From NCBI GenBank assembly GCA_030141605.1, contig JAQGDQ010000235.1:124001-188000 (forward strand): a DNA stretch of 64,000 nucleotides. Direction: 5' to 3'. Shown piece after piece: positions 16,201 to 60,475 of the stretch. Position 1 is the stretch's first letter, and every line of letters starts with the position of its first letter. The notes beneath the pieces are model-generated. The model had not been told where the DNA came from. It searched no databases and worked only from the letters and a program-made list of their open reading frames with translations. Position numbers and translations under genes: made by a program. This DNA comes from Tubiluchus corallicola. Taxonomy: Eukaryota; Priapulida; Priapulimorpha; Priapulimorphida; Tubiluchidae.

Positions 16201-16768
16201 TGGATTCCAACTGCCACCAAGATTCACAGATATTGGCATCTGCATTCCTAGACTACAGAGTGAGTACAAGACCAACTAAGGAGGACTGTTGTGACAGGGA
16301 GTTAGGAACACAACCACTCAAGGTCCAACCAAAGATGGTAGGAATCAGCATAAGAGTGGAGTATTAGGGGAAAAGGGGTGCATTAGGAGTAAAGATGTGA
16401 GGAAGGGCATCATTTCCAACCAATGTATCAATGGGTAATTGTAGTTGACTGTAGTCATCAGCATAATCTAGACCCTGTGGTAACATAGTTAAGCAAGACA
16501 ATTCAACACCCTGAAGAGCTGAACATATGATTGGAACAACCCAACAATTTATGAAATACCATTGATCATTATACATACTACGAAGTTTAAACTCATATTT
16601 CTGTCGGTTAATTGAGGAAGTATTCTTCCCACCAAAAGTTTGATCTTCAAACAACTTACGTTGAGTGGCACGTTTGCACTGAATTTGTTGACTGAGAGCT
16701 TCGCTAATGTAGGTCTCTTCAGGACAGGACCTCCTAAACAGGACGATCGATTCCATCCATGTGGACAA
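13211..16768 (-). pseudogene. BEL #1 pol remnant (protease, RT, RNase H, integrase)
   Basis: Minus-strand frames read in order: a DUF1758-like protease region (16768-16364) in which no D-S-G-S active site can be recognised; RT with VVFNGSAKPTIGLSINNC (16210-15773) and the catalytic box MYVDNLVAG, where BEL elements have YVDD; an A17/RNase H region (15345-14365); the zinc-binding integrase motif HHKLYHQG...CISCKK and the DDE core LDHFGPLYL, FYSDNAR (14305-13823), then GGYWERLIR and a DUF5641 C-terminus with VPRWRWPLGKIESL (13813-13211). Frame changes between successive blocks and an Asp-to-Asn change in the RT box show it is not functional. Confidence 0.92.
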
Positions 16769-17899
16769 GAACAGTTTGTAGAACTGTGCGGTGACCGTTG
16801 CTGGTAGTTTTCACCATGCAGTTGAGTTTAGGAGGAGGCGTATCACAAACACCACCAGGAGAAATTCCGCTGAATGCACTGTTTGAAGAAACACGATGCA
16901 GCAGTGTATGGTGCAAGGAACTACATTCTTTACACACATTCTTGGATGTGCACTGTTGTAGTTGATGAGACTGCAAACAATTGAAACACAAGTGTCTGTC
17001 CTTGATGAGCTTCTGTCGAGCATCAACGGACAAGTCTAAGAGCTTCTGACAACGGAAAGGGGTTCTACATGAATCGCCACACAATAAACAAGACTTGGTG
17101 TTATTGGTGCCCCTTGTCAGAAATGTAGAACGTTTACCAGAAAACTGCTTTACAGTTGGTTGAGCAGGCTTCTCGACGAAATAGTTGACTTTACGAAGTG
17201 GCTTCACATCGAGAGAAGTGCATGGTTGTAATCGAAGAAGTGCTGACATATGTGCACTTATTAGAACTTCTTTGTGCCCAAACCGACACGTGACAGTAGC
17301 GTAGTTAGCTGAGGAAAGAGGTAACCTGGCTATGGCTGTGGCAGCCTCACCACATAGTTGTCCTTTTAAGTAAGTGAACTTCTGTACAGGTAATAACTGC
17401 TCATGAGAATGGATAGCAGCATCAAACTGTTCCCAGAACGCCAACCATTCCAAAACCTGGCCATCAAATTTTGGCAGTTTCAGCTTAGGCAAATGAGTAA
17501 AAGCAGCTGAACGAGAAAGTGAAGTGTCAGAGAGAGTGTCAGCTCGATGGGAGCCTGCAGCAGGACCTGTGGTAGGATGGTCTGCTGCAGAAGCAGGGCC
17601 AAGAAACTGATTGGCACGATGTACTTCACGTGTAACACACAATTTATACTCATCAACAGATTCGACTTCCTCATCAAGTGACTCCTGTTCGGCATCAACG
17701 TCTAACAACTGTGACAAGATGTTGTTGTCTGCTTCAACAGATGCTCTGTTCTTTCAGTAACAAGTGATAAGAGAAGGCTTACCTCTTCCTTCCTTGGAAT
17801 TTCTCGATTTAGTTTGTCAGATAATAAGTTGGTAGCATTGGTAACTGAAGATCTTAAAGCTCGTCAAACTCGTTTAGTTTTCTCCACTTGCTCTGTCAT
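16734..17899 (-). pseudogene. BEL #1 gag remnant
   Basis: A plausible start codon lies at 17899; a stop follows after 11 codons and a frameshift occurs near 17715. Downstream is the DUF1759-like motif LPKLKLPKFDGQVLEWLAFW, then two Cys-rich knuckle regions (CLLCGDSCRTPFRCQ and CFNCLQSHQLQQC). The segment between them is much shorter than usual, with a jump from LRLQPCTSLDVKPLR to a linker, indicating an internal deletion of roughly 100 or more codons. Confidence 0.85.
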
Positions 17900-37398: not shown

Positions 37399-40300
37399 CA
37401 GTGGCGTCGTGCCATAGGGGCCCGGGGGGGCCCGGGCCCCCCCCAATTTTTTTAGAAAATGTCAAAAATTTGAAGGGCGTCAGCAGCTCGTAATGAGACC
37501 GGTAAGCAAATTTATTTCCGACTTTTTGACACGCGGCCAGCGCTCCATAAATGCGAACAGTATGAGCATGAGTATGTGTTTACCTGAAAGTCAGGATGTA
37601 GTTAATTTGTTTGCCTGTAATCTATCTATTCAGGAGGCAGGCAGGAACAGTTAACAAAGCAGCTCGTTTAGTAGCATTAGCGTCTTTGCACAAAAGACTG
37701 TTAGTTAACAAAACGGCTCAGTTAGCACTCGAGCTTCGTTCAGCAGTGTGTTATAATAGAGAATAAGTGAAATAATAGAGCAAAAACAATGCAAACATTG
37801 AAGTCATGTTGAGCTTGCCTAGTACCAGAGAGTCAGTTTGATCAGCTAGCCTAGTACCAGAGAGTCGGTTTGGGAGATACCAATTGATGATCCATGGCTC
37901 AGCCACCTCCTGATTGGACATTAACGACTCTTTGCTACTCCTTAGTGACTCTTTCCCACGAGTTTGCTGCATAAAAGGGCGTGATTTTGAGCACATTTCT
38001 TCATTTTTCTGCTGCTAGGAAAATCTTTGCTAGTTTTCGCTGCAATTTTAGCTATTTCTTAAACGATGTCGAGACAGTCCAATCTGACTTCATTTTTCAA
38101 ATCCAACCGTGTTCCCGACCCAGGTTCTACGGCGTCTGTATCTACTGTAACGTCGATTCCAACAGAACGAATCCAAAAGGATGAGTACATCCGTCGCGGG
38201 CCATTGCGGGACGTAGTGGATGCATACCCAAAGACCAAAATGGGAGGAAATCGAAATCATTTCAGGGTCAGTGGTTCAACGATAGGTCATGGTTGGAATA
38301 CGTAAAGGATATTGATGCTGCATTCTGTTTCCCGTGTCGTGTGTTTGGCGCATCGACTTACGACGTGACGTTTCAGAAGACAGGATTCAGAAATTGGCAT
38401 CGAGCGTTGGAAAGTAATAAGGGCTTCGACAAACACTCTAAATCTGCGGAGCACCAAGCCTGCATGCAGTCTTGGCAAGCATTTTTGACGAAACCCCCCA
38501 TCGACGCAGTATTAGATGCAGAGAGGAAGAGGCTCTTGGAGTTGGGCGACTCTGATCGGCAGAGACGACACGACATTCTCCCTATACTTGTGGATGTTAC
38601 TAAGACGCTAGCAAGACTCCGATTACCATTCCGCGGTCACGACGAGTCTGAAGATTCTAATAATAAAGGAGTGTTCATGGAGATCACAAATCTTCTCTCT
38701 CGATGGAACCCTGACCTGGCTACACACCTCGCCAAGTCAAGTGCCAATCCAAAGGGATACCCCAGCTACACGTCTCCCAGTTCTCAGAACGATTTGATTA
38801 AGTGCAGCGCTGATGTGATCCGTTCTGGAATTATCAAGGACGTAAAGGCAGCCAAGTATTTCGCCGTGTGCTTGGACACTACACCAGACACGAGCAAGCA
38901 AGATCAACTCTCAGTCATTCTCCGTTATGTCGATAAAAGTGGAGGCGTGCACGAAGATTTTTTAGACCTTGTCCATTCTGAGGACATGACTGCTGCAGGA
39001 CTGTTCAACGATCTACAGAAGGTTCTTGAAGCACATGGGCTCGAGATGACAAATATCCGAGGACAAGGATACGACGGCTGCTCAACGATGTCAGGCATTT
39101 ACTCTGGGGTACAGACTCGAGTCCGGAACATTTCCAAATCCGCATTCTTCGTTCACTGTTTCGCACACAGACTTAATCTTGTCATTGTGGACACGTGTTC
39201 ACGAAACATCATCATTCGAAACTTCTTTGGTGTAGTTGAATCCCTCTACAATTTCATCGAAGGATCCACAAAACGACACGCGGCATTTGCGAAAATCCGA
39301 GATGATATTCTACAGCTCGAATCGAATGAACACAACAAAGCATCCAAGACTCTGCACCCGCTTTCAGCAACTCGGTGGTCATCTCGCGTCGACAACTGCA
39401 AGACTCTTAAGGACAATCTGACTGGTGTAGTCATGACATTGGAATCCTTTAGCGAAAATCGATCATATGATCGAAAAACTGCTGGAGAGGCGTTCTCCCT
39501 CCTAAAATCAATAAATTATGAATTTTGTCTGTGTTTAGCAATCATGACTGATCTGCTGGGAATGTCACAGATTGTTTCCAAAGCACTCCAGAGCAAAGAA
39601 CTCAATGTGCCCTCAGCAGTGCTTCTCATCCAAGCCTTAATTAAAGAGACTGCAGCAAAGCGAACGGTGAATGACTTCGAAAAGTACTGGAAGATTGCAC
39701 AAGAAATAGCTGAGAGCATTGGGGTGGAGTACAGTGAGCCACGTCGTCGCAAAGTCTCGAAAAGAATTGACGAGTACTGGCAAACAGAGGCAACGCAAAC
39801 CGGTGTTGATTCTCTCCGAACAGCTCTGTTCTATGAGACCATCGACCTGATGACAAGTGCATTGAACTCTAGATTTGGTTCTGATGTCATTCCGTTGCTA
39901 CTGTCAACTGACTGTCTGATCAACCCATCAACATCACCTGCAAAGATGGAGAAAGTCAAAACTCTTTGCACTTTCTACATGGCTGATCTCGATGAAGAAA
40001 CCCTCGAGTTGGAGTACCGCTTGTTCACTCATGCTGTCACTGCAGACTCTGTTCCTGAACATGTCAACACAAACTGCATTCACTCAATATACTGTTATAT
40101 GACTTCTTCTGGACTGGACAAACTTTTCCCAATGATCTCCATCGCATACCAGTTGATTCTGACTCTGCCCATTACATCTTGCTCTTGTGAGAGATCCTTT
40201 TCTGCTCTTAAATTTGTCAAGAATGCTCTCCGCAGTACAATGAGTCAGACGCGACTGAGTGACCTGATGATCCTTGCAGTTGAGGCTGAGAAAACAAAGA

Positions 40301-40597
40301 ATATGGACTTGAAGTCTGTGGTTGAGCTCTTCTGGAGTGATTTTCTGCGTCGGATTCCTGACAGCTGATAAATACTTAATTAAATTTTAATTTAATTTTT
40401 AATTTTAATTAAGTTTCCGTTGCTATAGCTTTAAGTTAAATGCCATGTTAAATAAATCGTTTTTCTTGCACGCAAAATACTGTTTATTTTTTTTCAAAAT
40501 TAAATTTTCAAAATTTAAAATTAAAATTTAAACAGTTAAAATCCGTCATTATAGTCGGGCCCCCCCCCCCAATTTTTTTGGGTGCACGACGCCCCTG
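37399..40597 (+). mobile_element. hAT DNA transposon, near-complete
   Basis: Terminal inverted repeats CAGTGGCGTCGTGCC (left) and CAGGGGCGTCGTGCA (right, reverse complement), flanked by the 8-bp target duplication ATTAAAGA at 37391-37398 and 40598-40605, the hAT signature. G/C-homopolymer blocks lie just inside both ends. It carries one transposase gene. The 5' leader contains a tandem duplication (CTAGTACCAGAGAGTC twice) and a TATA-like CATAAAAGG ~95 bp before the first ATG. Confidence 0.96.
38066..40368 (+). pseudogene. hAT transposase (ZMYM1/DUF4371-like), one frameshift
   Basis: The first ATG at 38066 starts MSRQSNLTSFFKSNRVPDP; the frame shifts by one near 38235-38262, after which 691 codons are open to 40368. 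Domains: TTF-type zinc finger (WLEYVKDIDAAFCFPCRVFG), DUF4371 with the probable first catalytic Asp in CLDTTPDTS and second in GQGYDGCSTMSG, the FVHCFAHRLNLV helix, and the C-terminal hAT dimerisation domain with the catalytic Glu in SCSCERSFSALK. All three acidic residues are present, so the single frameshift may be the only lesion; a sequencing error or a tiny intron are alternatives. AATAAA at 40451. Confidence 0.9.
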
Positions 40598-41256: not shown

Positions 41257-44200
41257 TTACAATCCTTCAACAAAACAGAGTTTATGAATTGGACGGGTTA
41301 GAATAGAATTTTTGGTCTGTATATCTGCAGAGCGAACATTGCCATCATCTCTGCAGTGTGTTTTTATGACTCTTCCCAAGGGCCAGTGATTCCTTGGTAC
41401 CTGATCACTGATGACAACGATGTCATTTTCTTTGAGGTTTTCCTTTTTGTGGAACCATTTTGTTCTTGCGTTAACCAAAGGCAAATACTCCTTGTACCAG
41501 CGTGACCAGAAAACGTTGGCCAAATACTGAGTTTGCTTCCATCGTCTTCTGTAATGATCAGTAGGTGAGAACTCTCCTGGAGGTAGGTTAGAATTCGAAC
41601 GAAGCAATAAAATGTGATTTGGCGTAAGAGCTTGCAAGTCACTAGGGTCATCTGATGAAATAGTCAGAGGTCTACTGTTGATGATCGATTCAACTAGGCA
41701 AAACAAAGTAGTTAATCGTTCGTCATCGATTGCTTGTAAATTACTACCTACGAGAATTCGTCTAACTGATCGAATTAAACGTTCAAAGAAGCCACCAAAA
41801 TGACTTGAAGCGGGTGGATTGTACAACCATTGGATGTCTTTTTGCCTCAACTCAATATGTACCTGTTCTTGGTTCCATTCGCTAATCGATTTTCTAAGTT
41901 CCTTGTCAGCAGAGATAAAGTTTGTACCCTGGTCACATCTGATAGTAGTGGGTGTCCTCTTCTGGTTATGAACCTATGTAGTGCTTGTATCATGGAGTCT
42001 GTATCCATCGTATATAGTACTTCAAGATGAACAGCTCTGGATGTTGCACATGCGAAGATGCAACCATATCTTTTGATTCTGGTGCGTCCTCTATTAACCC
42101 AAAAATGACCAAAACAGTCGATGCCTACAGTTTCAAATGCATAAGAGCTGCCAACTCTATCAGGGGTAAGTCGGCCTATTTTTTCCCCATTTGACGAGCA
42201 AATAGGCGCCGGCAGATTCTGCAGTCTCGAAGAACCTTCTTTGTCAGATTCCTGACTCCAATTATCCAGTACTTTGTCCTAGTTAAAGCAATAACATGCT
42301 CTCTACCGACATGTGCATTAGTTTCATGAAAGTCACGAACTATTAAAGTTGACAGATGAGATTCGCTTGGAAGGATGATAGGATACTTTGTTTCTTCCTC
42401 AATGGTGGCATGTTTCAGGCGTCCATATATGTGGAGTAAGCCATCTTGGAAAATCTGGGGATTCAGCTTTATCAGCTTGCTTGATTTTGTAATCTGGCTA
42501 CCAGTTTTAAGAGACTTCAGTTCTTGAGAAAAATATTCGTGTTGCACGTGCTTTATGAGTGCCTTTTCTGCATCCTGTAGCTCGTCAACAGAAATACTTG
42601 TACTATACTGACGAGAAGTATGTGGTGTTTTATTTCTCAATATCTCTTTCACTCGTAGCAACCAGGCTGCAGCTTTCTTTAACTTGTAGAGACTGCTGTA
42701 GTGATTTATCAGCTTATTCACTGGTTCGTGATTTGTTGAGACAGCTGCATACGTTAGAATCTTGGATTCCTTCTTAAGTTCTGGATCTAAACTTAAGTCT
42801 GGCACTGCTATGATCGGATGCGACCATGTGGACTTGTCGTTTCTTAAAAAGTCGTGACCATTTATCCATCTTTTATCAGAAGCGAGTTTCTTTGCTGACA
42901 TGCCTCTAGATACATCGTTAGCAGGATTGACGTCTCCAGGTACATAATTCAATGGATCTGGATCTGTCAGTCGTCGAATGGTTGCCACCCTATTGGCAAC
43001 AAATGTCTTATAACGAGTTGCCTCATTACTTATGTAGCCTAAAACTGCCATGCTGTCAACCCAAAAACACGATTTTAACAGTGGAACTGTTAGCTCTCTT
43101 CTAAGCATGAAATCCACTTTTGCTGCAAGAACAGCCGCAGCAAGTTCAAGACGGGGGATTGTCACAGTTTTTATGGGAGCTAAGCGAGATTTGCTTAAGA
43201 CCAAAGTACAATTAATATCTCTGGATGTGTTTGTGACACGCAGGTATGAGGCTGTCCCGTATGCCTTTTCTGAACTATCGGAAAAATGATGCAGCTGGTA
43301 ATTAACTACATTTCCAAAGTCTGCAGGGATGTAGCATCTTGGAACACTCAAAGTCTTAAGATAATGTAGATTCTCTAGCCAAGCTTGCCATTTGGCCTTA
43401 ATGTGGTCAGAAAGATCATCATCCCAATCTTTTTTAGACGTGTTTCTTCTTGAAACAGAAGCTTGGCATTCAAGATGCATGGGCTGGTTATACCCAATGG
43501 GTCATAGGTCGAAGCTGTGACACTCAAAAGCCTACGTCGGGTCATAGGTCTGTCCTTCTTCTTGACTTGAATATTAAAAGTATCTGATTCCAGGTCCCAC
43601 ATTATCCCAAGGACCCTGTCCACAGGAAGAGTAGCTGGATTTCTTTGACATGATTGCTGCGATCTTTGGGTGCTACAGAAGATATTACTTCCCGATTGTT
43701 GCTGGACCATTTTGTCAAGTGAAAGCCTCCTTGGCGAAGTAATTCAGAAAGGTCCTTGATCAGAGAGGTAGCATCTGCTACAGTTTGTGTGGTTGCCAGA
43801 AGATCAACAACATAAAAGTTCCTTAAAACTGTCTGAATGACTATGTCCTCATAGTCATTGCTGTTGTCTTCTGCTGTCTTCCGCAATACAAAGGATGCAA
43901 TGCTAGGGCACCACATGCCTCCAAATATGTGCACTGTCATCTGGTAGATTTGTGGTTCTAAATCCACGTTCCCATCAGGCCACCAAATAAATCGTAAAAC
44001 GTCTCTGTCATCTGGATGCACTTGAACTTGGTACAACATCTTCTCGATGTCTGCTGCAATTGCAATAGGCTTTTCACGAAACCTGACCAACACCCCAACA
44101 AGGTTGTTAGTTAGGTCAGAGCTTTGTAAAACATTTTTATTGAGAGTTGTTCCACGAAAAATAACTGCACAGTCGAACACCACTCTGGTCTTATCTGGTT

Positions 44201-45310
44201 TGCTTTCACTTTTGACAGCAAAATGTGGGATGTACCATACTTTACCGGGCACAGGCTCATGATCCTTAGGAATGAGTTCTGCATGTCCGTTTCGTAGCAA
44301 CGTTGCAATTTCATTTGCATATTTATTATGAAAAGTGCTGTCCTGCCTGAATCTTTTTGCTAAACTTTCTAATCGGGACAGAGCAATGACTTTGTTATCC
44401 CCTAGTTGAGGATTTTTGTCTCTGAACGGTATTCTTATCTGGTAATGCCCATCTGGAGTTACAACAGCTGAATTTTTCCAAATTTTAATAGCTTTCGCAT
44501 CCTCTACAGACATGCCGACAGTTTCATTTTGACATTCTTCCAACTGCCAAAATTTTTGAATCACTTCCTGCAGCCCTTCCATATGAGCATAATGACTTAA
44601 GGCAATCTTAGTTTCTCCTGAACATAGCGGACCATTCAAAGTCCATCCAAGTTTAGTACGTGTCGCCCAAGGTGCATATTTTGGACCTGTCTTAATCTCC
44701 AGTGGCATGAGTGCTTCAGGTATGTCTTGACCAATTAAAAGACCTACATCTAAGTTGCTGCAATTGCCATTTAGGCAATGGAAATCAAGCCATTGAATGT
44801 GCGGCCATTCTTTTAGATGGTCTTGCGTTGGCATATTCTCCATATCGCACATCAAGGAAGGTCTGGTGAAGACGAAGACAGATCAATAAAATCTTGATTG
44901 TCAATATGCGAGACTTTGAGCTTGACAACAGTAGTCTTATTTTCACTCATCTTCCTTTCCAGAGTTGTTAGACGTAAAACAACACTCCTTCCCTGAGCAC
45001 CTAGTCTTAGGCGCAATGACTCTGAACAAAATGTATTCGTTGAACCATTGTCCAGTAAAGCTAGAGTCCTAGTTGGTACACCGCCTGGTACCTTTACTTG
45101 GACTGGTAGTATAGGCAAAGCTGTTCTTGCATTTGGCTTTTGTTGCTTTACATATCCACTTTGAGAGTTTGGCTTTGGTGATGCATCTCTATCTTCCTTT
45201 GCGTTGTTCTCAATTCTGGGAGATTTGTTACGCTTTCCATATGCTTCTTTAATCTGTGAAACATCTCTGTTTGGTATGGCGCTTGCTGTATCTTCCCTCT
45301 TCAGGTGCAA
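41257..45310 (-). pseudogene. BEL #2 pol remnant
   Basis: In minus-strand order: a retropepsin-like segment with LALLDNGSTNTF (about 45070-45000); the RT block 44855-43602, with AIAADIEKMLYQVQVHPDDR and the active site NFYVVDLLATT where BEL elements have YVDD; A17/RNase H-like sequence with YGTASYLRVTNT and integrase zinc motif HETNAHVGREH...CRICRR (43480-42176); the DDE core and DUF5641-like C-terminus with NHWPLGRVIKTH (42175-41257). Most blocks are long and open but in different frames, and the RT box has lost its first catalytic Asp. It is a younger-looking corpse than BEL #1. Confidence 0.92.
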
Positions 45311-45319
45311 AAAATTGGT

Positions 45320-46450
45320 GTGCCTTTCATGTCAAACCTCACATCTTTTCTCAGACCTGCAATTTCTGCTGATGTGGCTGTGCTTCAAGCAGTTGAAGCA
45401 AAGCTTATTTTGAGTAATAAACTCGCGACGTTCTTGAACAGATAACTTCTTGAAAGCAGGACATTTAATTAGTAGATGTTCTCCTGAGCAGGAAATGCAT
45501 TTTAAAATTTGAAACCTCTTGTCATTGCTCTTAGGATCATCTGCAGCTTGCGGTTGTTGTGTGTTTGTGTTAGCAAAGGGCTTTGTGCTTTTCTTGCTTT
45601 CTTTTCTGTCTACAGGCTTCTTGCGATATGTTGGGTCATTCTCTATTTTTGCCTGAAGTTCAATGAAACTCACAACATCTTCAATCCTGGGATCTCTGCC
45701 TGAAGTTCGTATTTTATAGACTTCCTTTCTCCATGAAGCATGAATTCCAGGCGGTAATTTGTCAACAATCTGAGATAGGTTTCATTGCGTGTTTATCTCA
45801 GATATGTGTCCAACTGCAGATAAAGCTTCTGAGCAACTTCTTAAAGTATCAGCGTAATCACGAAGCAGCTCTGGTTCGGACGCTTTTATATATTTGAAGC
45901 TTGATATTTCTTTCAACCAGGCCTACGTAATGGAGAATTCATCACCATACCTCTCCTTCAGCATTTCTTTGGCACGCATGTAACCAGTATCTGGGCGCAT
46001 ATTCATGCAACAGTCCATATATTTTCGCACCTTTTCGCTTCAAAATTGCAGGAGAAGTGAAAGTCTCGCAACACTATCTGTCGTGTTATTCTCTACAGTT
46101 GATTCAAAACGTCTAATGAATCTAGCATACTGGAGTTCTGAACCGTCAAATGTTTCGAGTTGGATGCTAGGAAATGGAAAACCGCTAAAGGCGCTATAGG
46201 TAGGCATACCTGTATTCATTGCAGGGGTATATTCAAGCTGTAGAGGTTGATTGCATGGGTTGGATGCATAGATGGTTGCTTGGTTACCTGGTTGCTTAAG
46301 GTTGCTGACACTGATTGGTTGGTTGCCAAAATGCCGATCTTGTACACGTGGCTGCTGAAAGAAATCTGTTTCGCTTTCACTAATATTAGGCTGGCTTGTG
46401 CGCAAAAGCACCCGCCAAATCTTCTCTGTCGCACGTAAAGGGTTGCGGGT
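45320..46450 (-). pseudogene. BEL #2 gag, central and C-terminal part
   Basis: Carries LETFDGSELQYARFIRRFE (DUF1759-like) near 46150 and two zinc-knuckle-like Cys clusters (CISCSGEHLLIKC and CFNCLKHSHISRNC) near 45500-45350, with frameshifts between. Its upstream limit near 46440 abuts a CpG-dense patch; the missing N-terminus is found 14 kb away at 60520-61027. Confidence 0.88.
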
Positions 46451-46645
46451 TCGCGTCTCGCCGAGTTCACTTTTTTTCGCGCGGATTCGAGCCGAAACTG
46501 GTGGAACTTAATGCTCGGGCCTTCCTTCGTCGCGTACGCACGTTAAAAAAATCGCGCTACTTTTGTGCGAGGTGAAAAATTTTTGCCGCAGCAATGTGCG
46601 AACCCGGGGCCCCTCATTACAGCACGGGCGTGTCAGCAGACGAAG
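46438..46645. promoter_or_regulatory. CpG-dense patch (possible promoter fragment)
   Basis: About 26 CpG dinucleotides in ~208 bp (for example TTCGCGCGGATTCGAGCCG), in a neighbourhood with very few. It contains two GGGTTCGC motifs resembling Pol III B boxes but no A box at proper spacing. It lies exactly at the left edge of the foreign block inside BEL #2. Promoter function is a guess. Confidence 0.4.
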
Positions 46646-47061
46646 ATAATTTATTGAGCATAAGCAATAGTATAAATTTTCGTACGATTAGTAGATGCAT
46701 TGAATACCTGTTTATGCGGAAATTCTCACAGTAATTCATTTTTCACAGTTTGTGCCTTGCAACTCATTCAACGTAATCAGAATGTAATGTTTTAATTCAG
46801 TTAATGTTTGTAATTTTTTGAATGCTTAATTGAACGTGCATAAACTACTTTTCACAAGTTTCTGGTGTTATTCGGCACTTTATATACTGTGTATAATTTA
46901 TTTATTCAGCAAAATCAATTCCAACATACCAAAAGAAAACAAGATTGTAAGGTTATAAGGTTTTATTTTTAAGGCTTTAAACATTTTTATAAATATACTA
47001 CTGATTTCATTATTATTTTATTTTAGTTTTAAAAACATTTATACTTATACATTTTTATGTT
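46646..47061. other. Non-coding, AT-rich
   Basis: No gene; leads into the satellite remnant. Confidence 0.55.
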
Positions 47062-47252
47062 TTAGCAAAAAAACTGCACTTCTGGTTAGAATGGAACCAC
47101 AATCACAATATAATATATATATCACAACATTACAGTCAAAATTACATGTTGAAAAGAAGAATACAGTGCAGAAAAAATACAGATATACACGTTTAAGCAA
47201 AAAAACTGCACTAACCATATAATTTAAGGAACACAGTGCAGAAAAAATACAG
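47062..47252. repeat. Left remnant of 120-bp satellite
   Basis: Contains AGCAAAAAAACTGCACTTCTG, ACCACAATCACAATATAA and ATACAGTGCAGAAAAAATAC in the order of the array at 55515-57945. It is the part of the array left of the Gypsy insertion; its unit with AACCATATAATTTAA also occurs at the array's far right end (57884). Confidence 0.9.
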
Positions 47253-47257
47253 ATATA

Positions 47258-48564
47258 TGTAATGGCCCGTGCATGCAGGGGCAGACCATAGGGGCCAATT
47301 AATGGTAGTTGCTGCTAAGTTCGATCAGTTCCTTGGCCGAGCTAGGGGCACTAACCGACTGCCCACTAAAGAAACAGACAATAGCTGAGCGTAGGCAGAC
47401 TCTACGGGGGCTCTACCTAAATAGCATGGGTTCTTTTGTTGTGGGATTGATTAAAAACAGGCTTCCCATCAATACCTCAAAAACCAAACTGTAACCAGTC
47501 GAATAAATGACAAAATATTAAGTTTAATGACACAAACAAAAACAGTTGTATAATTTAGCTTTTTGTAAACAATGGAAATTAGTAATAAGCAAAAGCTAAT
47601 CTGAAAACGCTACTAAACAGCATGGCATGAAATAAATGCAATGACTAAACACACAAAAATCATACAGTGTTCCTAACTATTTAAAGGGTTCCTACTTACT
47701 CTACCAGCCACCCCAAAATGCGTACGCTAGCATAGTATATTCTCCAGACAAGTGTAGTTTGCGGTCAGAGTCCTTTAGAACGACTGAAGTATGGTTCTGA
47801 CTTCATGTAACGGGTTCACGACTCCCACAGTAACGACTCAAAAATCTGAGAGAAACGTAGCTAAATGTTTCAACGTAAGTCTAACAAAAGGGTGACGTGT
47901 GAACGGAGCTGTAGGCATACATGCGCTCGGAAATTCACATCAAAAACAAGTTCTCCCTCTGGCGCCAATTAACGATAACGTAAGTAAACAGGTACCTTTG
48001 CCTTCCGGTTTATTGGCATACAGTTCCTACCCGGGCAGTGACGACTTCTCCGTCCCATGCGACGGACTATCGAGCTGGGCACCTTTCCAACTGCACGACG
48101 GTGCTCTCACATGATCCGAAACGACATCTTCCCGGCATGGTAAGATCAGCAAAGCCAGGTAAACCAATGAGTGGACATCTTTCACCACCACAAATAGATC
48201 ATTAGCTTTTCAAACGTCAGCTAATGGACAATCAGGTAAAACGCAAAAACGCAGTTTAACCAACCAAAGTCAAGTTGCATATCCTGTCCGAGAAATCTGT
48301 GTCATGAACGTACAGAAATCCATGTGTTTGGCTTCAATCCGCTTAAATACACCAACGTACAGTTACACGTTTAACCCAACCCAGGGGGGGGCTAACATTC
48401 CCTAAACTAACAAATAGTATTACCTAGTTGATTATAACAATCTAGAAACAATTTACACTTAGTGAACATAAGTAAGGAAAAGCTGGTGTCAAAATCAGAA
48501 AATAAAGCTTAATGTTTATCTGCAAGTTAAAGTACGGCTCTATGATTTAACCTGGGTCCTTACA
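47258..48564 (-). repeat. Gypsy 3' LTR
   Basis: 1307 bp, 99.7% identical to 54202-55509. A minus-strand AATAAA lies at 48009-48014. Confidence 0.97.
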
Positions 48565-48580
48565 ATGGCCCCCTCTCAAA
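48565..48580 (-). other. Gypsy polypurine tract
   Basis: The minus strand reads TTTGAGAGGGGGCCAT directly before the 3' LTR, as needed for plus-strand priming. Confidence 0.8.
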
Positions 48581-48863
48581 CGAGTGCTGAAATACCGATA
48601 TTTGGCTTGCAAAATAGTAAGGGTTTCAGCACTACAAGAAGTTTTGGGTAAAGATCAACAAATATATTTACTATAACAGAACCAAAATAAGTCGGTTTCG
48701 ACTTGTTCAATATCAAGAACAAAAAAGGGTACTCCCAAACAAAAGCTTAGGTATTTACGCAGTACTCCGCTGTGTTTCGAACATGTCAAAATATGCATGT
48801 TGTACTTGTCATGTAAAATGTTGATCGTGTTTTAGCAAAAATATATAACTGTGCCATATATGA

Positions 48864-51800
48864 TTATATGCGTGATAATGTGTCAGCAGGCACATTCTTT
48901 CTGCCAGGTAGGTGTTCCACAGTGAGAGAATAGTTTTGCAGAATGAGTGCCCACCTTGAGATTCTCCGATTGGAGTGCCTCATTTTGTGCAAATGTTGCA
49001 AAGGGGAGTGGTCACAGCGTATTATGAATTTACGCCCTTCGAGATAGTAGTTCCACTTCTCGACAGCATGGACAATACTTAAGAGCTCCAGCTCAATAGC
49101 TGAGTAGTTCTTCTCAGCAGACGTAAGCTTACGGCTGAGGTAGGTGATCGGAACTTCATTGCCTGGTTCCTGTTCCTTACTCAAGATAGCACCCAAACCC
49201 CGAATTGACGCGTCAGTAGTTACGATGAAAGGTAAACTAAAATTCGGACTATGGAGTACACTATCTGAGGTAAGAAAGTCACGCAGGGTAACAAAGCTCT
49301 GTTCATGATCAGCAGACCATGTGACTGTAGATGGTTGGGTCTTTTGAGTTAGCTCAAAGAGTGGTAGAGCAATTTGGCTAAAATGGGGGATGAATCTACG
49401 GTAAAACCCCACTAAGCCCAAGAAGGCTCTTACTTGAGTGTTCGTCTCTGGACGAGGAAAGTTTTGTATTGTCTGAATCTTTTCTGCTTGAGGACGTAAA
49501 CGATTACGCCCCACCACATAGCCTAAGAACTCTGTTTCTCGTTGGGCGAGGAAACATTTCTTTGGCTTAATAGTAAGTTGTGCTGCTCTTAAAATACAAA
49601 AGACCGTTTCAAGGTGCCGGAGGTGGTCATCCCAATTGTTCGACTTGACACATATGTCATCGGTAAAACCTCTTGCATGCTGGTTGATATCTTCTAAAAG
49701 GATGTCGATAAGTTGTTGAGATGTTTGGGCTGCATTCTGTAATCCGAAAGGCATAGCCTTGAATTCCCATTTCCCAAAGTCTGTTATGAAGGCAGAAATT
49801 GGCCTGGATTCTTGGGCGAGAGGAATTTGCCAATATGCCTTAGTCATATCAATGTGGGAAATCCATTCTGAACAGTGCAATTCATCGACCATCTCATCAA
49901 CCCTAGGCATTGCGTACTGGACAAAAAGTGTCTTGCGATTCACAGCACGATAGTCGATGCAAAAGCGAATGGTTTGGTCCTGCTTAGGTACTAAAATGGC
50001 AGGAGAAGCATAGGGTGAGTCGGATTTCTGAATTACATCGAGCTTCTCCATCTCGATAATCTCTTTTCGGACAATTTCTTTCCGAGATTGAGGGATGCGA
50101 TACGCTCGCTGATGCACTGGAGTACAATCTGAGAGAATGATATGGTGCTCTGTTACATGGGTTCGGCCTGGGATGTCTGAGAAAATGTCAGCATGCTTTT
50201 GTAGAAGCTGACTAAGTTGGCAAGATTGTTGTTTGGTTAGGTGCTCTGGTATCTCCACATCGGTGGCGAATTGAGTTTGTATCGCTGGGGGTAAGAAAGC
50301 AACTTCAGGGAGTTGAGCTGCCTGCATAGGGGTAGGAGCCAATTCTTCCTCATCATAACTTGGAGACAGGTCATCTACCCCTGGGAATGCCAGATCTGAC
50401 TGTTGGCATTTGGAAAACAGAGCTACGCTCTCTGATCGTTTCACCAAAGGCTTTAATAAGTTTATGTGAAACGTCCTTGTATGTACTTTTACACCAGGTT
50501 TGGAAATCTGAACTTTATAACTATGATCTGACAACTTGTCAACCACTTGGTAGGGGCCCTGCCAGATTCGATTTAGTTTTTTCTTGGAAGATGGTAATAA
50601 AACTAACACCTCTTGTCCGATTTCCAATGAGCGAGCAGATGATACTTTGTCGTACCATCTTTTTTGGGCTAGTTTGGCCTGGTTTAAGGCCTGGTGAGCT
50701 TCCTCAGTGGATTGCTCTAATTCATTGATGACCCTATCAACATAGTCATCAACATTGTAATATGATGGAGGGTCTGTACAACCCCATCTTCTTCGCAGGG
50801 CTGACATTGGGCCTCGAACTGGGAAGCCATATACTAGTTCGAATGGGCTATACTTTAAAGAAGCTTGGGGTATCTCTCTATAGGCAAAGAGTACAAACGG
50901 GATTAATTCATCCCATTCAAAGATACATTGAGTTTGTAGCAACTTCCTTATGGAACTCTTGAGTGAGTCATTAAATTTTTCCGTGACACCCTGTGTCATC
51001 GGATGGTAAGGTGTTGCAAACATTCCTTTAATACCTAAAGCATCTTCAAGCTTCATGATGAGAGTCGAAGTGAATTGAGCACCACGATCTGATAATATTT
51101 CTTTGGGTATGCCATGCCTACAAATAAATTGGAGGAGAGCCTGTGCAACACATTCTGCTGACTCTGATTTGAGGGGGTAGGCATCCGGATATCGGGTTGC
51201 TTGATCGACGATGACCAAAGCATACTTATGACCAGAGCGTGTTCTCGGTAAAGGGCCAATTAGGTCTATGCAGATCTGCGCAAATGGCTCCTTTACTATT
51301 GGCAAAGGCTTGAGTGGGGCTCTGTCGGCAGTCCTACGTTTAGATGCTCTTTGACAGGCTAAACATGACTTGACATATGCCTTAATGTCACTCAAGACTT
51401 TGGGCCAATAATATTGGGATAAGACCCGATCAATGGTCTTGCGCATCCCTTGATGTGCAGCTGGCAGTTTGTCATGGGCAAGCTCGAGCACTTGCTGACG
51501 ACGGACTGAGGGTACTACTAGAAGGTCAGTGTGGCCTCCTCTTGCATTACGGCGCACTGTGTGAAGTACTCCTTGCTTTAAGAAGTAGCCAACCTTTTGG
51601 GCTTTGCATTCAGCTTCTGCTTGCACATGGTCAAATAAGTTGCGCAAAGTAACATCATTTTTCTGTTCACTTATTAAGTGTTCTCTTTGCACCAATTCTG
51701 CAAGGTTCTGTTGTTTCCTAGCCTGTTTCTCATTTAAGACAGGTAGGGGTGTATCAGAACTAGCTTGGTGCTGTATTTCTGCATCATGTTTTTCTTGTTC

Positions 51801-53789
51801 AGTTAGAGCCCTTGCCTTAGCTCTCGTTACTATCGGGAATGCAACAAATTTTGTAGCGTCTGCATCAGCAACAGGCTGAGGTTCCCAACTGGGTTGAGGG
51901 GCAGACATGCTCTTTTGCTCAGTAGACTGAACTACCTGAGAGTACAACTTGGGTGTCTCCCGACCTTCACCCGAAGTCAATGGTTGGTTTCTGAGTGTGG
52001 GAGCTTTCCCAGGTTGCTTGGGTTGTTGCTTGTTTGTCCCACTAGATTTGTCTTTCTTTGACAAAAATGGAGAGATTTCAGTTTCAAAGTCATTCCCCAA
52101 CAATAGTGGAACTGGACAATCAACCGCGACTGTGACTGTCAGATAACCTGTAGCGTAAGGCGATTCTATTTCAACAATAGCAACGGGACAAGATTTGTCA
52201 CAGTTATGTATGCAAGACAGTTGGTTGGACAAACCTTTCACGTATTGTTCAGGGCGGACATGGTCTGGGTGGACAACAGACTTTGAGGCTCCAGTGTCTC
52301 GCAACCCGATGACGTCTTTTCCATTCAAGACGGCTCGAAAACATGGTTGACCAGACACACACTCTTCGGTTCCGGCTCCAGCAGTGACTAAAGCCGACAT
52401 ATCTGGAGCACAAGGGACCAAAAGTTGTTTGTATGACGGTTTGTCTCTCACACTAAGTGCTAATCTAGGCCTTTCAGTGGGAGAGGCCTTCTTTCTTGGG
52501 CAAGAGGAAGAATAATGGCCCTGCTGGCCGCAATGGTAACATTGCACTCGGGCTAGTGCGGTTCCTCCCTTGTGTGTTGCAGGTTTTACGTCAGGTTTAC
52601 GGTTTGCTGATGATGAAGAGAATTTAATAGAGGTTGCTCTGGGATTCTGAGCTGAAATATAAGCGTCAGCTTTTTGAGCAGCTTCGTCAAGTTTGTAGAT
52701 GCCATTTTTCTTCAGCCACAAAGCGACCTCTGCAGGGATTATTGTCATGAAATGCTCATAGGCTATTAAATCTACGGCCTGATCTTTACTGGTGACCGAC
52801 ATAGCATCTGCCCAGTCCCGTAGGCTCTGCCTGAGACGTACCACTGTCTGCGTACACGTCTCATCTTTGCGTTTAGAAAGGTCCCTAAACGCTATGCGGT
52901 AACTCTCAGGAGTCACCATATAAGCTGCAAGAATGGCTTCCCTGACTTTGGTATAAGAACGAATATCATCCCCTTCAATAAGTTGGAATGCATAACTAGC
53001 CTTACCCGAGAGGTGAGGGGCAAGAGAACAACACCACTGTGACCTCGGTATATCATTCACTTGGCAACAACGCTCATAATAAGTCAAGTACTCCAGGATC
53101 GACTCACCTTGACCTTCCTTAAAAGGTCGCACTTTGAGTTTAATATACTGTGTGGATTCAGTAGATGTAGAGTTTGCATTTGCGTTTGATGTATTTAATG
53201 AAAGACGTGCTCTTTGCAACTCTCTGTCATGTCTTTTGCTTTCTTGCATTGCTTCCCACTCTCTCTCCATCCTCCTTTCTTCACGCTCCCGTTGACGTTC
53301 CTTTATCTCTAATTCACGCACCTGCCATTCTCTGTCTCTCGCTAACTCTCTCTCTCTCGCTCTGGACTCCTCCAGTTGTAAAATTAATTTGACTTTATCA
53401 TCTGGGGGCAACCCCGTTAAATCATACGTGCCTGTCTCATTACTAGTAGTTATTTGTGTGCTAGGATCGCTAAGCTGTTTTGCTGGTGTTTGGTGCAAGG
53501 TAAGCTGTGGCGGACTCGAGTCGGGGGAGGGCGGCGCTAACCTCGTAGCTTGTGTTTTCTCGACTGTCTGTTGTACTGCTGACAACAGTGTAGTGACGGG
53601 CGAAACCATTACTTGTTGGGTTTCCGATGGTAGTGGGCGCTGGGCCTGAATTTCTAATATTGTGTCAATAAGAACTACCCGCCTATTAGACAAAGAGATC
53701 ATACCCAATGATCTAGCTATTTCTCGAAGCTTGGACATTGGCAATGTGTCCAACTGTTCTTTTGTATAAACATTATCCTCGTCTTCCAT
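48864..53789 (-). CDS. Gag-Pol polyprotein, integrase upstream of RT (Gmr1-type Gypsy)
   Basis: 1641 codons from ATG at 53789. In order: a short SAP-like helix pair (residues ~8-47), a charged Arg/Glu coiled coil (~135-200), the retrotransposon gag core (~215-380), a CCHC knuckle CYHCGQQGHYSSSC (417-430), an aspartic protease with LRDTGAS (496-502) and LLLGNDF (~562), integrase zinc finger HDKLPAAHQG...CLACQR (~772-813), DDE core ICIDLIGPLP, ILSDRGAQF and VTEKFN (~840-938), a GPY-like segment (WQGPYQVVDKLS, ~1076), reverse transcriptase with HIDMTKAYWQIPL and FTDDICV (~1313-1380), and RNase H with TTDAS, ELELLS, RCDHSP and PADTLSRI at the very end. All catalytic acids I expect are present. 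Conventional Gypsy elements end with integrase; this one ends with RNase H. No chromodomain. One continuous frame means no gag/pol frameshift signal is needed. Confidence 0.97.
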   Translation of the reverse strand: MEDEDNVYTKEQLDTLPMSKLREIARSLGMISLSNRRVVLIDTILEIQAQRPLPSETQQVMVSPVTTLLSAVQQTVEKTQATRLAPPSPDSSPPQLTLHQTPAKQLSDPSTQITTSNETGTYDLTGLPPDDKVKLILQLEESRARERELARDREWQVRELEIKERQREREERRMEREWEAMQESKRHDRELQRARLSLNTSNANANSTSTESTQYIKLKVRPFKEGQGESILEYLTYYERCCQVNDIPRSQWCCSLAPHLSGKASYAFQLIEGDDIRSYTKVREAILAAYMVTPESYRIAFRDLSKRKDETCTQTVVRLRQSLRDWADAMSVTSKDQAVDLIAYEHFMTIIPAEVALWLKKNGIYKLDEAAQKADAYISAQNPRATSIKFSSSSANRKPDVKPATHKGGTALARVQCYHCGQQGHYSSSCPRKKASPTERPRLALSVRDKPSYKQLLVPCAPDMSALVTAGAGTEECVSGQPCFRAVLNGKDVIGLRDTGASKSVVHPDHVRPEQYVKGLSNQLSCIHNCDKSCPVAIVEIESPYATGYLTVTVAVDCPVPLLLGNDFETEISPFLSKKDKSSGTNKQQPKQPGKAPTLRNQPLTSGEGRETPKLYSQVVQSTEQKSMSAPQPSWEPQPVADADATKFVAFPIVTRAKARALTEQEKHDAEIQHQASSDTPLPVLNEKQARKQQNLAELVQREHLISEQKNDVTLRNLFDHVQAEAECKAQKVGYFLKQGVLHTVRRNARGGHTDLLVVPSVRRQQVLELAHDKLPAAHQGMRKTIDRVLSQYYWPKVLSDIKAYVKSCLACQRASKRRTADRAPLKPLPIVKEPFAQICIDLIGPLPRTRSGHKYALVIVDQATRYPDAYPLKSESAECVAQALLQFICRHGIPKEILSDRGAQFTSTLIMKLEDALGIKGMFATPYHPMTQGVTEKFNDSLKSSIRKLLQTQCIFEWDELIPFVLFAYREIPQASLKYSPFELVYGFPVRGPMSALRRRWGCTDPPSYYNVDDYVDRVINELEQSTEEAHQALNQAKLAQKRWYDKVSSARSLEIGQEVLVLLPSSKKKLNRIWQGPYQVVDKLSDHSYKVQISKPGVKVHTRTFHINLLKPLVKRSESVALFSKCQQSDLAFPGVDDLSPSYDEEELAPTPMQAAQLPEVAFLPPAIQTQFATDVEIPEHLTKQQSCQLSQLLQKHADIFSDIPGRTHVTEHHIILSDCTPVHQRAYRIPQSRKEIVRKEIIEMEKLDVIQKSDSPYASPAILVPKQDQTIRFCIDYRAVNRKTLFVQYAMPRVDEMVDELHCSEWISHIDMTKAYWQIPLAQESRPISAFITDFGKWEFKAMPFGLQNAAQTSQQLIDILLEDINQHARGFTDDICVKSNNWDDHLRHLETVFCILRAAQLTIKPKKCFLAQRETEFLGYVVGRNRLRPQAEKIQTIQNFPRPETNTQVRAFLGLVGFYRRFIPHFSQIALPLFELTQKTQPSTVTWSADHEQSFVTLRDFLTSDSVLHSPNFSLPFIVTTDASIRGLGAILSKEQEPGNEVPITYLSRKLTSAEKNYSAIELELLSIVHAVEKWNYYLEGRKFIIRCDHSPLQHLHKMRHSNRRISRWALILQNYSLTVEHLPGRKNVPADTLSRI

Positions 53790-54180
53790 GTTTATTAATG
53801 TAGTATTATAATACTGTAAGTGTGAATAAATTTATTATTCGACTTTTGCCAAGCAGTATCAACTGTGCGAATTCTTTAAATTGTGTAATTCGCCACAGCG
53901 AATTCTGCGCAAAACTCGGCTTCAATAACTGCAACAAGATTTTGCTATGGAAGCCACGAGAACAAAGTACACTAAAGCGCAGCAAAAAATTCGTATTACT
54001 GCACAAAGTTATAACAACTAAACCTGTTATACGTTCAACGCAATGTTAGAGAAATGAAATATCAGTGACCTAGTTTCTCGCACCTACTTTCTTGTGCGAG
54101 TGCTAAATTTCTTCCCAAGGTCTTTGTATTAAACTTAAATTTTTGAAATAAACGCACAGAGTAGCAAACCTGATTAAATC

Positions 54181-54199
54181 AATCCCACCGCTGCCACCA
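54181..54199 (-). other. Gypsy primer binding site (tRNA-Leu type)
   Basis: Plus-strand AATCCCACCGCTGCCACCA equals the 3' end of metazoan tRNA-Leu(AAG) plus CCA, a 19-nt match; it lies 2 nt from the 5' LTR. Confidence 0.9.
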
Positions 54200-54201
54200 T
54201 C

Positions 54202-55509
54202 TGTAATGGCCCGTGCATGCAGGGGCAGACCATAGGGGCCAATTAATGGTAGTCGCTGCTAAGTTCGATCAGTTCCTTGGCCGAGCTAGGGGCACTAACC
54301 GACTGCCCACTAAAGAAACAGACAATAGCTGAGCGTAGGCAGACTCTACGGGGGCTCTACCTAAATAGCATGGGTTCTTTTGTTGTGGGATTGATTAAAA
54401 ACAGGCTTCCCATCAATACCTCAAAAACCAAACTGTAACCAGTCGAATAAATGACAAAATATTAAGTTTAATGACACAAACAAAAACAGTTGTATAATTG
54501 AGCTTTTTGTAAACAATGGAAATTAGTAATAAGCAAAAGCTAATCTGAAAACGCTACTAAACAGCATGGCATGAAATAAATGCAATGACTAAACACACAA
54601 AAATCATACAGTGTTCCTAACTATTTAAAGGGTTCCTACTTACTCTACCAGCCACCCCAAAATGCGTACGCTAGCATAATATCTTCTCCAGACAAGTGTA
54701 GTTTGCGGTCAGAGTCCTTTAGAACGACTGAAGTATGGTTCTGACTTCATGTAACGGGTTCACGACTCCCACAGTAACGACTCAAAAATCTGAGAGAAAC
54801 GTAGCTAAATGTTTCAACGTAAGTCTAACAAAAGGGTGACGTGTGAACGGAGCTGTAGGCATACATGCGCTCGGAAATTCACATCAAAAACAAGTTCTCC
54901 CTCTGGCGCCAATTAACGATAACGTAAGTAAACAGGTACCTTTGCCTTCCGGTTTATTGGCATACAGTTCCTACCCGGGCAGTGACGACTTCTCCGTCCC
55001 ATGCGACGGACTATCGAGCTGGGCACCTTTCCAACTGCACGACGGTGCTCTCACATGATCCGAAACGACATCTTCCCGGCATGGTAAGATCAGCAAAGCC
55101 AGGTAAACCAATGAGTGGACATCTTTCACCACCACAAATAGATCATTAGCTTTTCAAACGTCAGCTAATGGACAATCAGGTAAAACGCAAAAACGCAGTT
55201 TAACCAACCAAAGTCAAGTTGCATATCCTGTCCGAGAAATCTGTGTCATGAACGTACAGAAATCCATGTGTTTGGCTTCAATCCGCTTAAATACACCAAC
55301 GTACAGTTACACGTTTAACCCAACCCAGGGGGGGGGCTAACATTCCCTAAACTAACAAATAGTATTACCTAGTTGATTATAACAATCTAGAAACAATTTA
55401 CACTTAGTGAACATAAGTAAGGAAAAGCTGGTGTCAAAATCAGAAAATAAAGCTTAATGTTTATCTGCAAGTTAAAGTACGGCTCTATGATTTAACCTGG
55501 GTCCTTACA
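54202..55509 (-). repeat. Gypsy 5' LTR
   Basis: 1308 bp; differs from the 3' LTR by four substitutions (in the GGTAGT(T/C)GCTG, AATT(T/G)AGC and GCATA(G/A)TAT(A/C)TT segments) and one extra G in a G run. Confidence 0.97.
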
Positions 55510-55514
55510 ATATA

Positions 55515-57945
55515 CATGTTTAAGCAAAAAAACTGCACTTCTGGTTAGAATGAAACCACAATCACAATATAAATGAAAACCACAAATTACAGAAACATTA
55601 CAGTCAAAATACAGTGCAGAAAAAATACAGATATACATGTTTAAGCAAAAAAACTGCACTTCTGGTTAAAATGAAACCACAATCACAATATAAATGAAAA
55701 CCACAAATTACAGTCAAAATACAGTGCAGAAAAACAGATATACATGTTTAAGCAAAAAACTGCAATTCTGGTTAGAATGAAACCACAATCACAATATAAA
55801 TGAAAACCACAAATTACAGAAACATTACAGTCAAAATACAGTGCAGAAAAAATACAGATATACATGTTTAAGCAAAAAACTGCACTTCTGGTTAGAATGA
55901 AACCACAATCACAATATAAATGAAAACCACAAATTACAGAAACATTACAGTCAAAATACAGTGCAGAAAAAATACAGATATACATGTTTAAGCAAAAAAA
56001 CTGCACTTCTGGTTAGAATGAAACCACAATCACAATATAAATGAAAACCACAAATTACAGTCAAAATACAGTGCAGAAAAATACAGATATACATGTTTAA
56101 GCAAAAACTGCAATTCTGGTTAGAATGAAACCACAATCACAATATAAATGAAAACCACAAATTACAGAAACATTACAGTCACAATACAGTGCAGAAAAAA
56201 TACAGATATACATGTTTAAGCAAAATACTGCAATTCTGGTTAGAATGAAACCACAATCACAATATAAATGAAAACCTCAAATTACAGAAACATTACAGTC
56301 AAAATACAGTGCAGAAAAATACAGATATACATGTTTAAGCAAGAAAACTGCACTTCTGGTTAGAATGAAACCACAATCACAATATAAATGAAAACCACAA
56401 ATTACAGAAACATTACAGTCAAAATACAGTGCAGAAAAATACAGATATACATGTTTAAGCAAAAAAACTGCACTTCTGGTTAGAATGAAACCACAATCAC
56501 AATATAAATGAAAACCACAAATTACAGAAACATTACAGTCAAAATACAGTGCAGAAAAATACAGATATACATGTTTAAGCAAAAAAACTGTACTTCTGGT
56601 TAGAATGAAACCACAATCACAATATAAATGAAAACCACAAATTACAGTCAAAATACAGTGCAGAAAATACAGATATACATGTTTAAGCAAAAACTGCAAT
56701 TCTGGTTAGAATGAAACCACAATCACAATATAAATGAAAACCACAAATTACAGAAACATTACAGTCACAATACAGTGCAGAAAAAATACAGATATACATG
56801 TTTAAGCAAAATACTGCAATTCTGGTTAGAATGAAACCACAATCACAATATAAATGAAAACCTCAAATTACAGAAACATTACAGTCAAAATACAGTGCAG
56901 AAAAATACAGATATACATGTTTAAGCAAGAAAACTGCACTTCTGGTTAGAATGAAACCACAATCACAATATAAATGAAAACCACAAATTACAGAAACATT
57001 ACAGTCTCAAAATACAGTGCAGAAAAATACAGATATACATGTTTAAGCAAAAAAACTGCACTTCTGGTTAGAATGAAACCACAGTCACAATATAAATGAA
57101 AACCACAAATTACAGAAACATTACAGTCAAAATACAGTGCAGAAAAATACAGATATACATGTTTAAGCAAAAAAACTGCACTTCTGGTTAGAATGAAACC
57201 ACTATCACAATATAAATGAGAACCACAAATTACAGTCAAAATACAGTGCAGAAAAATACAGATATACATGTTTAAGCAAAAACTGCAATTCTGGTTAGAA
57301 TGAAACCACAATCACAATATAAATGAAAACCACAAATTACAGAAACATTACAGTCACAATACAGTGCAGAAAAAATACAGATATACATGTTTAAGCAAAA
57401 TACTGCAATTCTGGTTAGAATGAAACCACAATCACAATATAAATGAAAACCTCAAATTACAGAAACATTACAGTCAAAATACAGTGCAGAAAAATACAGA
57501 TATACATGTTTAAGCAAAAAAAACTGCACTTCTGGTTAGAATGAAACCACAATCACAATATAAATGAAAACCACAAATTACAGAAACATTACAGTCTCAA
57601 AATACAGTGCAGAAAAAATACAGATATACATGTTTAAGCAAAAAAACTGCACTTCTGGTTAGAATGAAACCACTATCACAATATAAATGAGAACCACAAA
57701 TTACAGAAACATTACAGTCAAAATACAGTGCAGAAAAAATACAGATATACATGTTTAAGCAAAAAACTGCACTTCTGGTTAGAATGAAACCACAATCACA
57801 ATATAAATGAAAACCACAATTACAATCAAAATACAGTGCAGAAAAATACAGATATACATGTTTAAGCAAAAACAAACTGTACTAACCATATAATTTAAAG
57901 AATACAGTGCAGAAAAAATACAGATATACAAGTTATACAGTTCAC
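55515..57945. repeat. ~120-bp satellite array with 5-mer higher-order structure
   Basis: About 20 monomers, each with CTGGTTAGAATGAAACCAC and ATACAGTGCAGAAAAA. Most are 120-123 bp; four are 106-107 bp because they lack AGAAACATTACAG-type sequence. Short units start intervals at 55662, 56009, 56596 and 57184; between 56116, 56702 and 57291 the pattern (four long, one short; 586 and 589 bp) repeats with shared variants such as AAAATACTGCAATTC and CCTCAAATTACAG. Open frames in it are artefacts. Confidence 0.95.
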
Positions 57946-59817: not shown

Positions 59818-60475
59818 TCATTGAAATATTTCCAGTGGCGTAAAGACATCTCTTAACTTGTCATAATGGTGTTGCCAAGGCTTCTCTTTCCCAAGGAAAT
59901 GTACAACTTTTATTTCATCCCTACAAGCTTCAAATGCAGGTAGATATGTGTAGCACGTAGATGCCAAAACATTATAAGTAAAGAGGAGACGATCCCAGTC
60001 TTTAAAAAAGCTGTTCAACAAGCCCTGATCTCCTCCTTCAAAGCTTGGGAATGTTCTGGCAAAGGTTAATAGACTGTTATAAGTGTCAAGACTTGGTCTG
60101 ATGACCATAACACCACTGTTGAAATGGTCAGGCCAACCAATATCAAGAGGTTCTTCTTTTTCAAAGTCAATATTTCGCAGGACAATCGTGTCTGCATCCA
60201 TGAAAATGCATTTAGAGTAACGTGTCAAAGCCCAACAATGAAGCTTGGTGTATGTTGCTCTCAACTCGGGACGTCCTGCATATAGCGCCTCTAAACCGTC
60301 GCAGATTTGTTCTTCAACAAGCTCAACGTCATCAAAAATTGTCTGCATTTGTATCATAATCTTCGACGAGAGCTGCGCTCTTACCATGACAACTATGCTA
60401 TGCTTAGTATTTGTTTTTCACAAAGAATGAGCTAAGACCATAGCGCTTTGAGCATAAAAGTCATTAGTTGCAAGG
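59818..60475 (-). pseudogene. Glycogenin-like glycosyltransferase (GT8) fragment
   Basis: Minus-strand reading gives VTLATND at the start, then a UGA after AHSL, then open from MVRAQLSSKIM to a stop at 59818. GT8/glycogenin motifs are clear: TKLHCWALTRYSKCIFMDAD (metal-binding DxD), GWPDHFNSGVMV, GGDQGLLN, FTYN, YTYLPAF and VHFLGKEKPW. Known glycogenins self-glucosylate a Tyr and prime glycogen in the cytosol; they run beyond 330 residues, whereas this stops at ~215 without the C-terminal glycogen-synthase-binding end. It has no introns across the catalytic core and starts abruptly at AG|GTAACC inside BEL gag, so it looks like a retrocopied or captured piece, not a working gene. Confidence 0.88.

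Follow-up and report, generated by a model that had tools for sequence, protein, structure and literature searches.

What does it mean for an LTR retrotransposon to encode its integrase ahead of its reverse transcriptase (RT), and does such an arrangement belong to one copy or to a lineage? The element at positions 47258-55509 of the window (the whole 64,000-nucleotide stretch of DNA analysed here) raises this question, the integrase-first order being textbook for the Gmr1 group (PMC6238403, PMC2582038). We read it as an LTR retrotransposon that is complete, belongs to the Gmr1-type branch of Ty3/Gypsy (Metaviridae) and has recently inserted into the genome of a protostome, a reading to which we assign a probability of about 0.93. 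That it adds another member to Gmr1, well formed and ordinary, rather than a new type of element, is well supported.

The coordinates given in the initial annotation proved exact, and the element lies on the minus strand, which that annotation had not stated. It extends from a 5' LTR of 1308 nt (54202-55509) to a 3' LTR of 1307 nt (47258-48564), both on the minus strand and both reading TGT...ACA. Their alignment over 1308 columns holds 4 substitutions and one 1-nt gap, a divergence of 0.31% with the 4 substitutions counted, in line with the near-identical LTRs and young insertion claimed for this locus. The target site duplication is likewise intact as claimed, with ATATA at 55510-55514 on the 5' side of the element and at 47253-47257 on the 3' side, the flanking sequences being ...GATATA and ATATACATG... 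The empty-site sequence GATATACATG occurs 8 times in an adjoining 120-bp tandem array (55506-57872, with further units at 47028-47257), so that the insertion must have struck one end of this array. Diverged copies elsewhere in the genome match part of the array. After the 5' LTR, and 2 nt past it, the sequence TGGTGGCAGCGGTGGGATT (54181-54199, minus strand) provides a primer binding site, its 19 nt being complementary to CCA plus the 3' end of a tRNA-Leu that the host genome itself carries in 3 copies, as the proposed primer site would have it. A putative polypurine tract, GAGAGGGGG, lies 4 nt before the 3' LTR (48569-48577, minus strand), its sequence being read directly and its function inferred.

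A single gag-pol frame of 1641 codons (48864-53789, minus strand, as are all domains below) occupies the interior. Pfam searches, run on separate pieces of the polyprotein only, recovered SCAN, zf-CCHC, RVP, Integrase_H2C2, rve, an integrase SH3-like domain, RVT_1 and RNase H in that order, which agrees with the gag-protease-integrase-RT-RNase H succession first proposed. The gag part holds a SCAN-type capsid C-terminal domain (aa 294-381, 52647-52910; PF02023, E 5.5e-12) and a CCHC zinc knuckle (aa 416-431, 52497-52544; PF00098). Next comes an aspartic protease (aa 481-571, 52077-52349), recognised by its DTGA motif and by a PF00077 match that was just over the cut-off (E 5e-4) in one of two polyprotein pieces. 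The integrase comprises an HHCC zinc-binding domain (aa 759-817, 51339-51515; PF17921, E 7e-20), a catalytic core with D,D-35-E spacing (aa 834-930, 51000-51290; PF00665, E 2.4e-15) and a C-terminal SH3-like domain (aa 1066-1115, 50445-50594; PF24626, E 2e-7). RT (aa 1267-1425, 49515-49991; PF00078, E 1e-27) and RNase H (aa 1516-1620, 48930-49244; PF17917, E 1e-37) follow. All catalytic motifs are present, as had been reported: DTGA, HHCC, D,D-35-E, the RT D with FTDD, and the RNase H D-E-D. The FTDD box is also found in a copy on contig C1849, two other close copies have FIDD and most relatives YIDD; the catalytic aspartates of the box are intact. By eye, the gag N-terminus, LDTLPMSKLREIARSLGM (53550-53789, minus strand), resembles a SAP-type helix pair; it has no Pfam match. 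With its LTR pair, target site duplication, primer binding site, putative polypurine tract and open gag-pol frame, the element is structurally complete, and the whole anatomy, motifs included, cannot be due to chance.

The initial annotation had named two observations that would speak against it, an RT falling among standard Gypsy elements and an integrase at the C-terminus in other copies; neither was borne out. The RT piece was searched against the 343.5-Mb eukaryotic assembly, in which the window lies on contig C1143; of 401 candidates, 150 were scored as matches, and domain order was mapped in 56 loci, the window element included. The integrase came first in 36 of these, again counting the window element, and last in 20. 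It lay upstream of RT in all 35 other sampled relatives (those with at least 44% RT identity or of the lineage of L056, a locus at G000:C1958:298760-303808), none of which had a C-terminal integrase, while all 20 sampled elements outside this clade had the order RT-RNase H-integrase. In a maximum-likelihood tree of RT and RNase H with 33 distinct rows, the integrase-first elements, including the one in the window, form a single clade outside ordinary Gypsy (support 98/96), and the order changes once against 15.8 times in shuffles. L056, whose RT is 37% identical to that of the window element, is the first branch of this clade and sits on a long branch. The integrase tree has two order changes, with a single change in just 8% of bootstrap trees and no starred conflict; three long-branch ordinary elements are placed among the integrase-first group with weak support. 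The RT clade thus lends good support to one origin of the integrase-first order, which the weaker integrase tree does not contradict. L056 itself is divergent and integrase-first with a SCAN-type capsid; contig C19 holds a near copy of it (96%) and C1595 a decayed one.

The SCAN-type capsid is a third Gmr1 trait of the window element, one that the initial annotation had not mentioned. By sequence, and among solved structures, the capsid piece matches the SCAN domains of human ZNF24, PEG3 and ZNF174. The genome holds 112 SCAN places. When a SCAN and an RT were paired if on the same strand with the SCAN 1.5-5.5 kb upstream, 50 of the 74 RTs with at least 44% identity had such a SCAN, against 1 of the 69 with at most 40%, the sole exception being L056 (Fisher p = 8e-19, a value that overstates independence because near-identical copies were counted). 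A further 61 of the 112 SCAN places are without a nearby RT from the scored list, and many lie in open frames 821-1109 codons long; the majority are probably gags with an unscored RT. Vertebrate SCAN domains descend from a Gmr1-like gag according to reviews (PMC3424704, PMC4592553), and one survey found SCAN in frog Gmr elements alone (PMC4131045). Order, RT clade (98/96) and capsid therefore agree on the Gmr1-type assignment made at the outset.

Three other explanations have to be weighed against this assignment. The domain order is the same as in Ty1/Copia, as expected if the element were a Copia element or a Gypsy/Copia chimera with a captured copia integrase. The likeness ends with the position of the integrase, however: among solved structures the best match is Ty3 for both RT (4ol8, E 9.6e-39) and integrase (7q5b, E 3.9e-35), followed for the latter by foamy virus, and neither a copia protein nor Ty1 is among the structure matches listed for either. 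The integrase moreover has the Gypsy-type HHCC domain and SH3-like end, and integrase-last Gypsy elements of this genome carry a homologue of it. Copia membership was rejected on these matches, and we consider capture from copia to have a negligible chance of being right. With Ty3 nearest for both proteins, comparison at the protein level indicates that the integrase was relocated within Gypsy rather than taken from copia. Nothing was found in favour of a local rearrangement of an ordinary Gypsy element, confined to the copy in the window: the same order stands in 35 other loci of the RT clade and the integrase-to-RT linker of ~0.4 kb recurs in L056, for all its divergence in RT. This possibility was rejected given the clade-wide order, and its likelihood is vanishingly small.

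Somewhat more room, though still very little, is left for an integrase-first Gypsy lineage that evolved independently and converged on Gmr1 without being a member. The case for membership is built from a single genome: the order, the capsid and the monophyly of the elements there, which are the ones that the trees cover. This scope, and an integrase tree that is not clean, are what favours convergence. Convergence would, however, also have to account for the SCAN-type capsid, a second trait tied to Gmr1-like elements (PMC3424704, PMC4131045), and Gmr1-like elements have been published from other protostomes (PMC3587641, PMC8220671). We consider it improbable and retain the Gmr1-type assignment.

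The host was placed by its microRNAs. Seven mir-2 hairpins pass the family score, and each of two clusters (G000:C2054:587.9-588.6 kb and C1024:830-833 kb, loci L009 and L010) has one mir-71 next to it. The mir-71/mir-2 cluster has been described as protostome (PMC3763532), so the host is a protostome. A pair of mir-71/mir-2 clusters is reminiscent of flatworms, but there the mature miRNAs are at most ~100 nt apart (PMC4405270), whereas the mir-2 hairpins in L009 are ~280-300 nt apart; the host is therefore not assigned to that phylum. The genome has no match to the molluscan haemocyanin or annelid erythrocruorin linker families, a silence that is not proof, and no candidate at all for the arthropod cuticle family, which speaks against an arthropod with the same reservation. 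Mitochondrial COX1 has no match in the assembly. The suggestion that a non-deuterostome host would widen the range of the group therefore stands in its premise only: crustaceans yielded Gmr1-like elements in 2013, described as the first from protostomes (PMC3587641), the Gmr1-like element LGF3 followed in 2021 from the annelid Lamellibrachia (PMC8220671), and Gmr1 is one of five Gypsy clades that another 2021 paper names as occurring in several phyla (PMC8556966). With such elements already published, the range is not widened.

The element shares its protease-integrase-RT-RNase H order (PMC2582038, PMC3424704, PMC4131045) and its Gypsy-type RT and integrase with Gmr1 of Atlantic cod and the deuterostome Gmr1-like Ty3/Gypsy elements, and its SCAN-type capsid with the vertebrate Gmr1-like gag (PMC3424704, PMC4131045); it differs from them in its protostome host, the comparison being one of traits and not of sequence distance. 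GyRex4, Gychoro2, GyMaja1 and GyLiva4 of crustaceans (PMC3587641) and LGF3 of Lamellibrachia (PMC8220671) belong to the same group and are also non-deuterostome. The crustacean elements were placed by RT/RNase H sequences that resemble a fish element with the Gmr1 structure (PMC3587641), whereas in the present case the genome itself shows the complete order, the capsid, the LTRs and many families, which makes the evidence unusually complete. Ordinary Ty3/Gypsy elements (RT-RNase H-integrase) have homologous RT, RNase H and three-part integrase, but differ in the position of the integrase, and of the 69 more distantly related RT loci 68 lack the SCAN-type capsid.

The family of the window element has at least 40 LTR matches in the genome and few internal regions, with five RT matches of at least 94% among the 150 scored. 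Two single LTRs have 5-bp duplications of their own (TCCGA and GATGG) and are thus solo LTRs. The LTR pair of the C1849 copy differs by 5 substitutions, and its lineage differs from that of the window element by ~4%; set beside the 4 substitutions in the window, this indicates that at least two sublineages inserted recently, as judged from LTR divergence. If substitutions are assumed to accumulate at 1e-9 to 1e-8 per site per year, the insertion in the window would date to ~1.5 to 0.15 million years ago, which is no firm date. In other integrase-first families several RTs are identical, and the frames have 1613-1641 codons. Matches on C1787, C2138 and C2264 fall at nearly the same coordinates of their contigs, which suggests uncollapsed haplotypes, by which copy counts would be inflated. 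A search with the flanks for a second haplotype or empty site of the locus gave just this locus and diverged repeats. That the element may still be mobile, as initially proposed, is plausible.

Following established LTR-retrotransposon biology, the LTR would drive a transcript translated into one polyprotein, which the protease would cleave; the capsid would assemble particles, tRNA-Leu would prime reverse transcription, and the integrase would insert the DNA copy, giving the 5-bp duplication. The integrase-first order would have arisen once, when a Gypsy-type integrase moved ahead of RT in the ancestor of the clade, a change older than the window copy and involving no capture of a copia integrase. 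From a non-deuterostome, these data supply evidence that is full-length and extends across the clade, both for a single origin of this order within Gypsy and for its link with the SCAN-type capsid, the source of the SCAN domain in vertebrate transcription factors; both have mostly been described in vertebrates. Tentatively, and with rather less than even confidence, we suggest that this protostome genome harbours a diversity of Gmr1-type elements with a SCAN-type capsid, many of them young, that, together with the vertebrate data, the capsid predates the protostome-deuterostome split or was transferred horizontally, and that Gmr1 may so far be unpublished from the phylum of the host.

The window also contains two BEL/Pao elements with broken frames (41257-46507 and 13211-17753, both minus strand), with Peptidase_A17 and DUF1759 or an integrase zinc domain, and a hAT transposase in an open frame of 727 codons (38185-40368, plus strand) with DUF4371 and a dimerisation domain. 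Near the insertion, a Glycosyltransferase family 8 exon (59818-60417, minus strand) likely belongs to a host gene.
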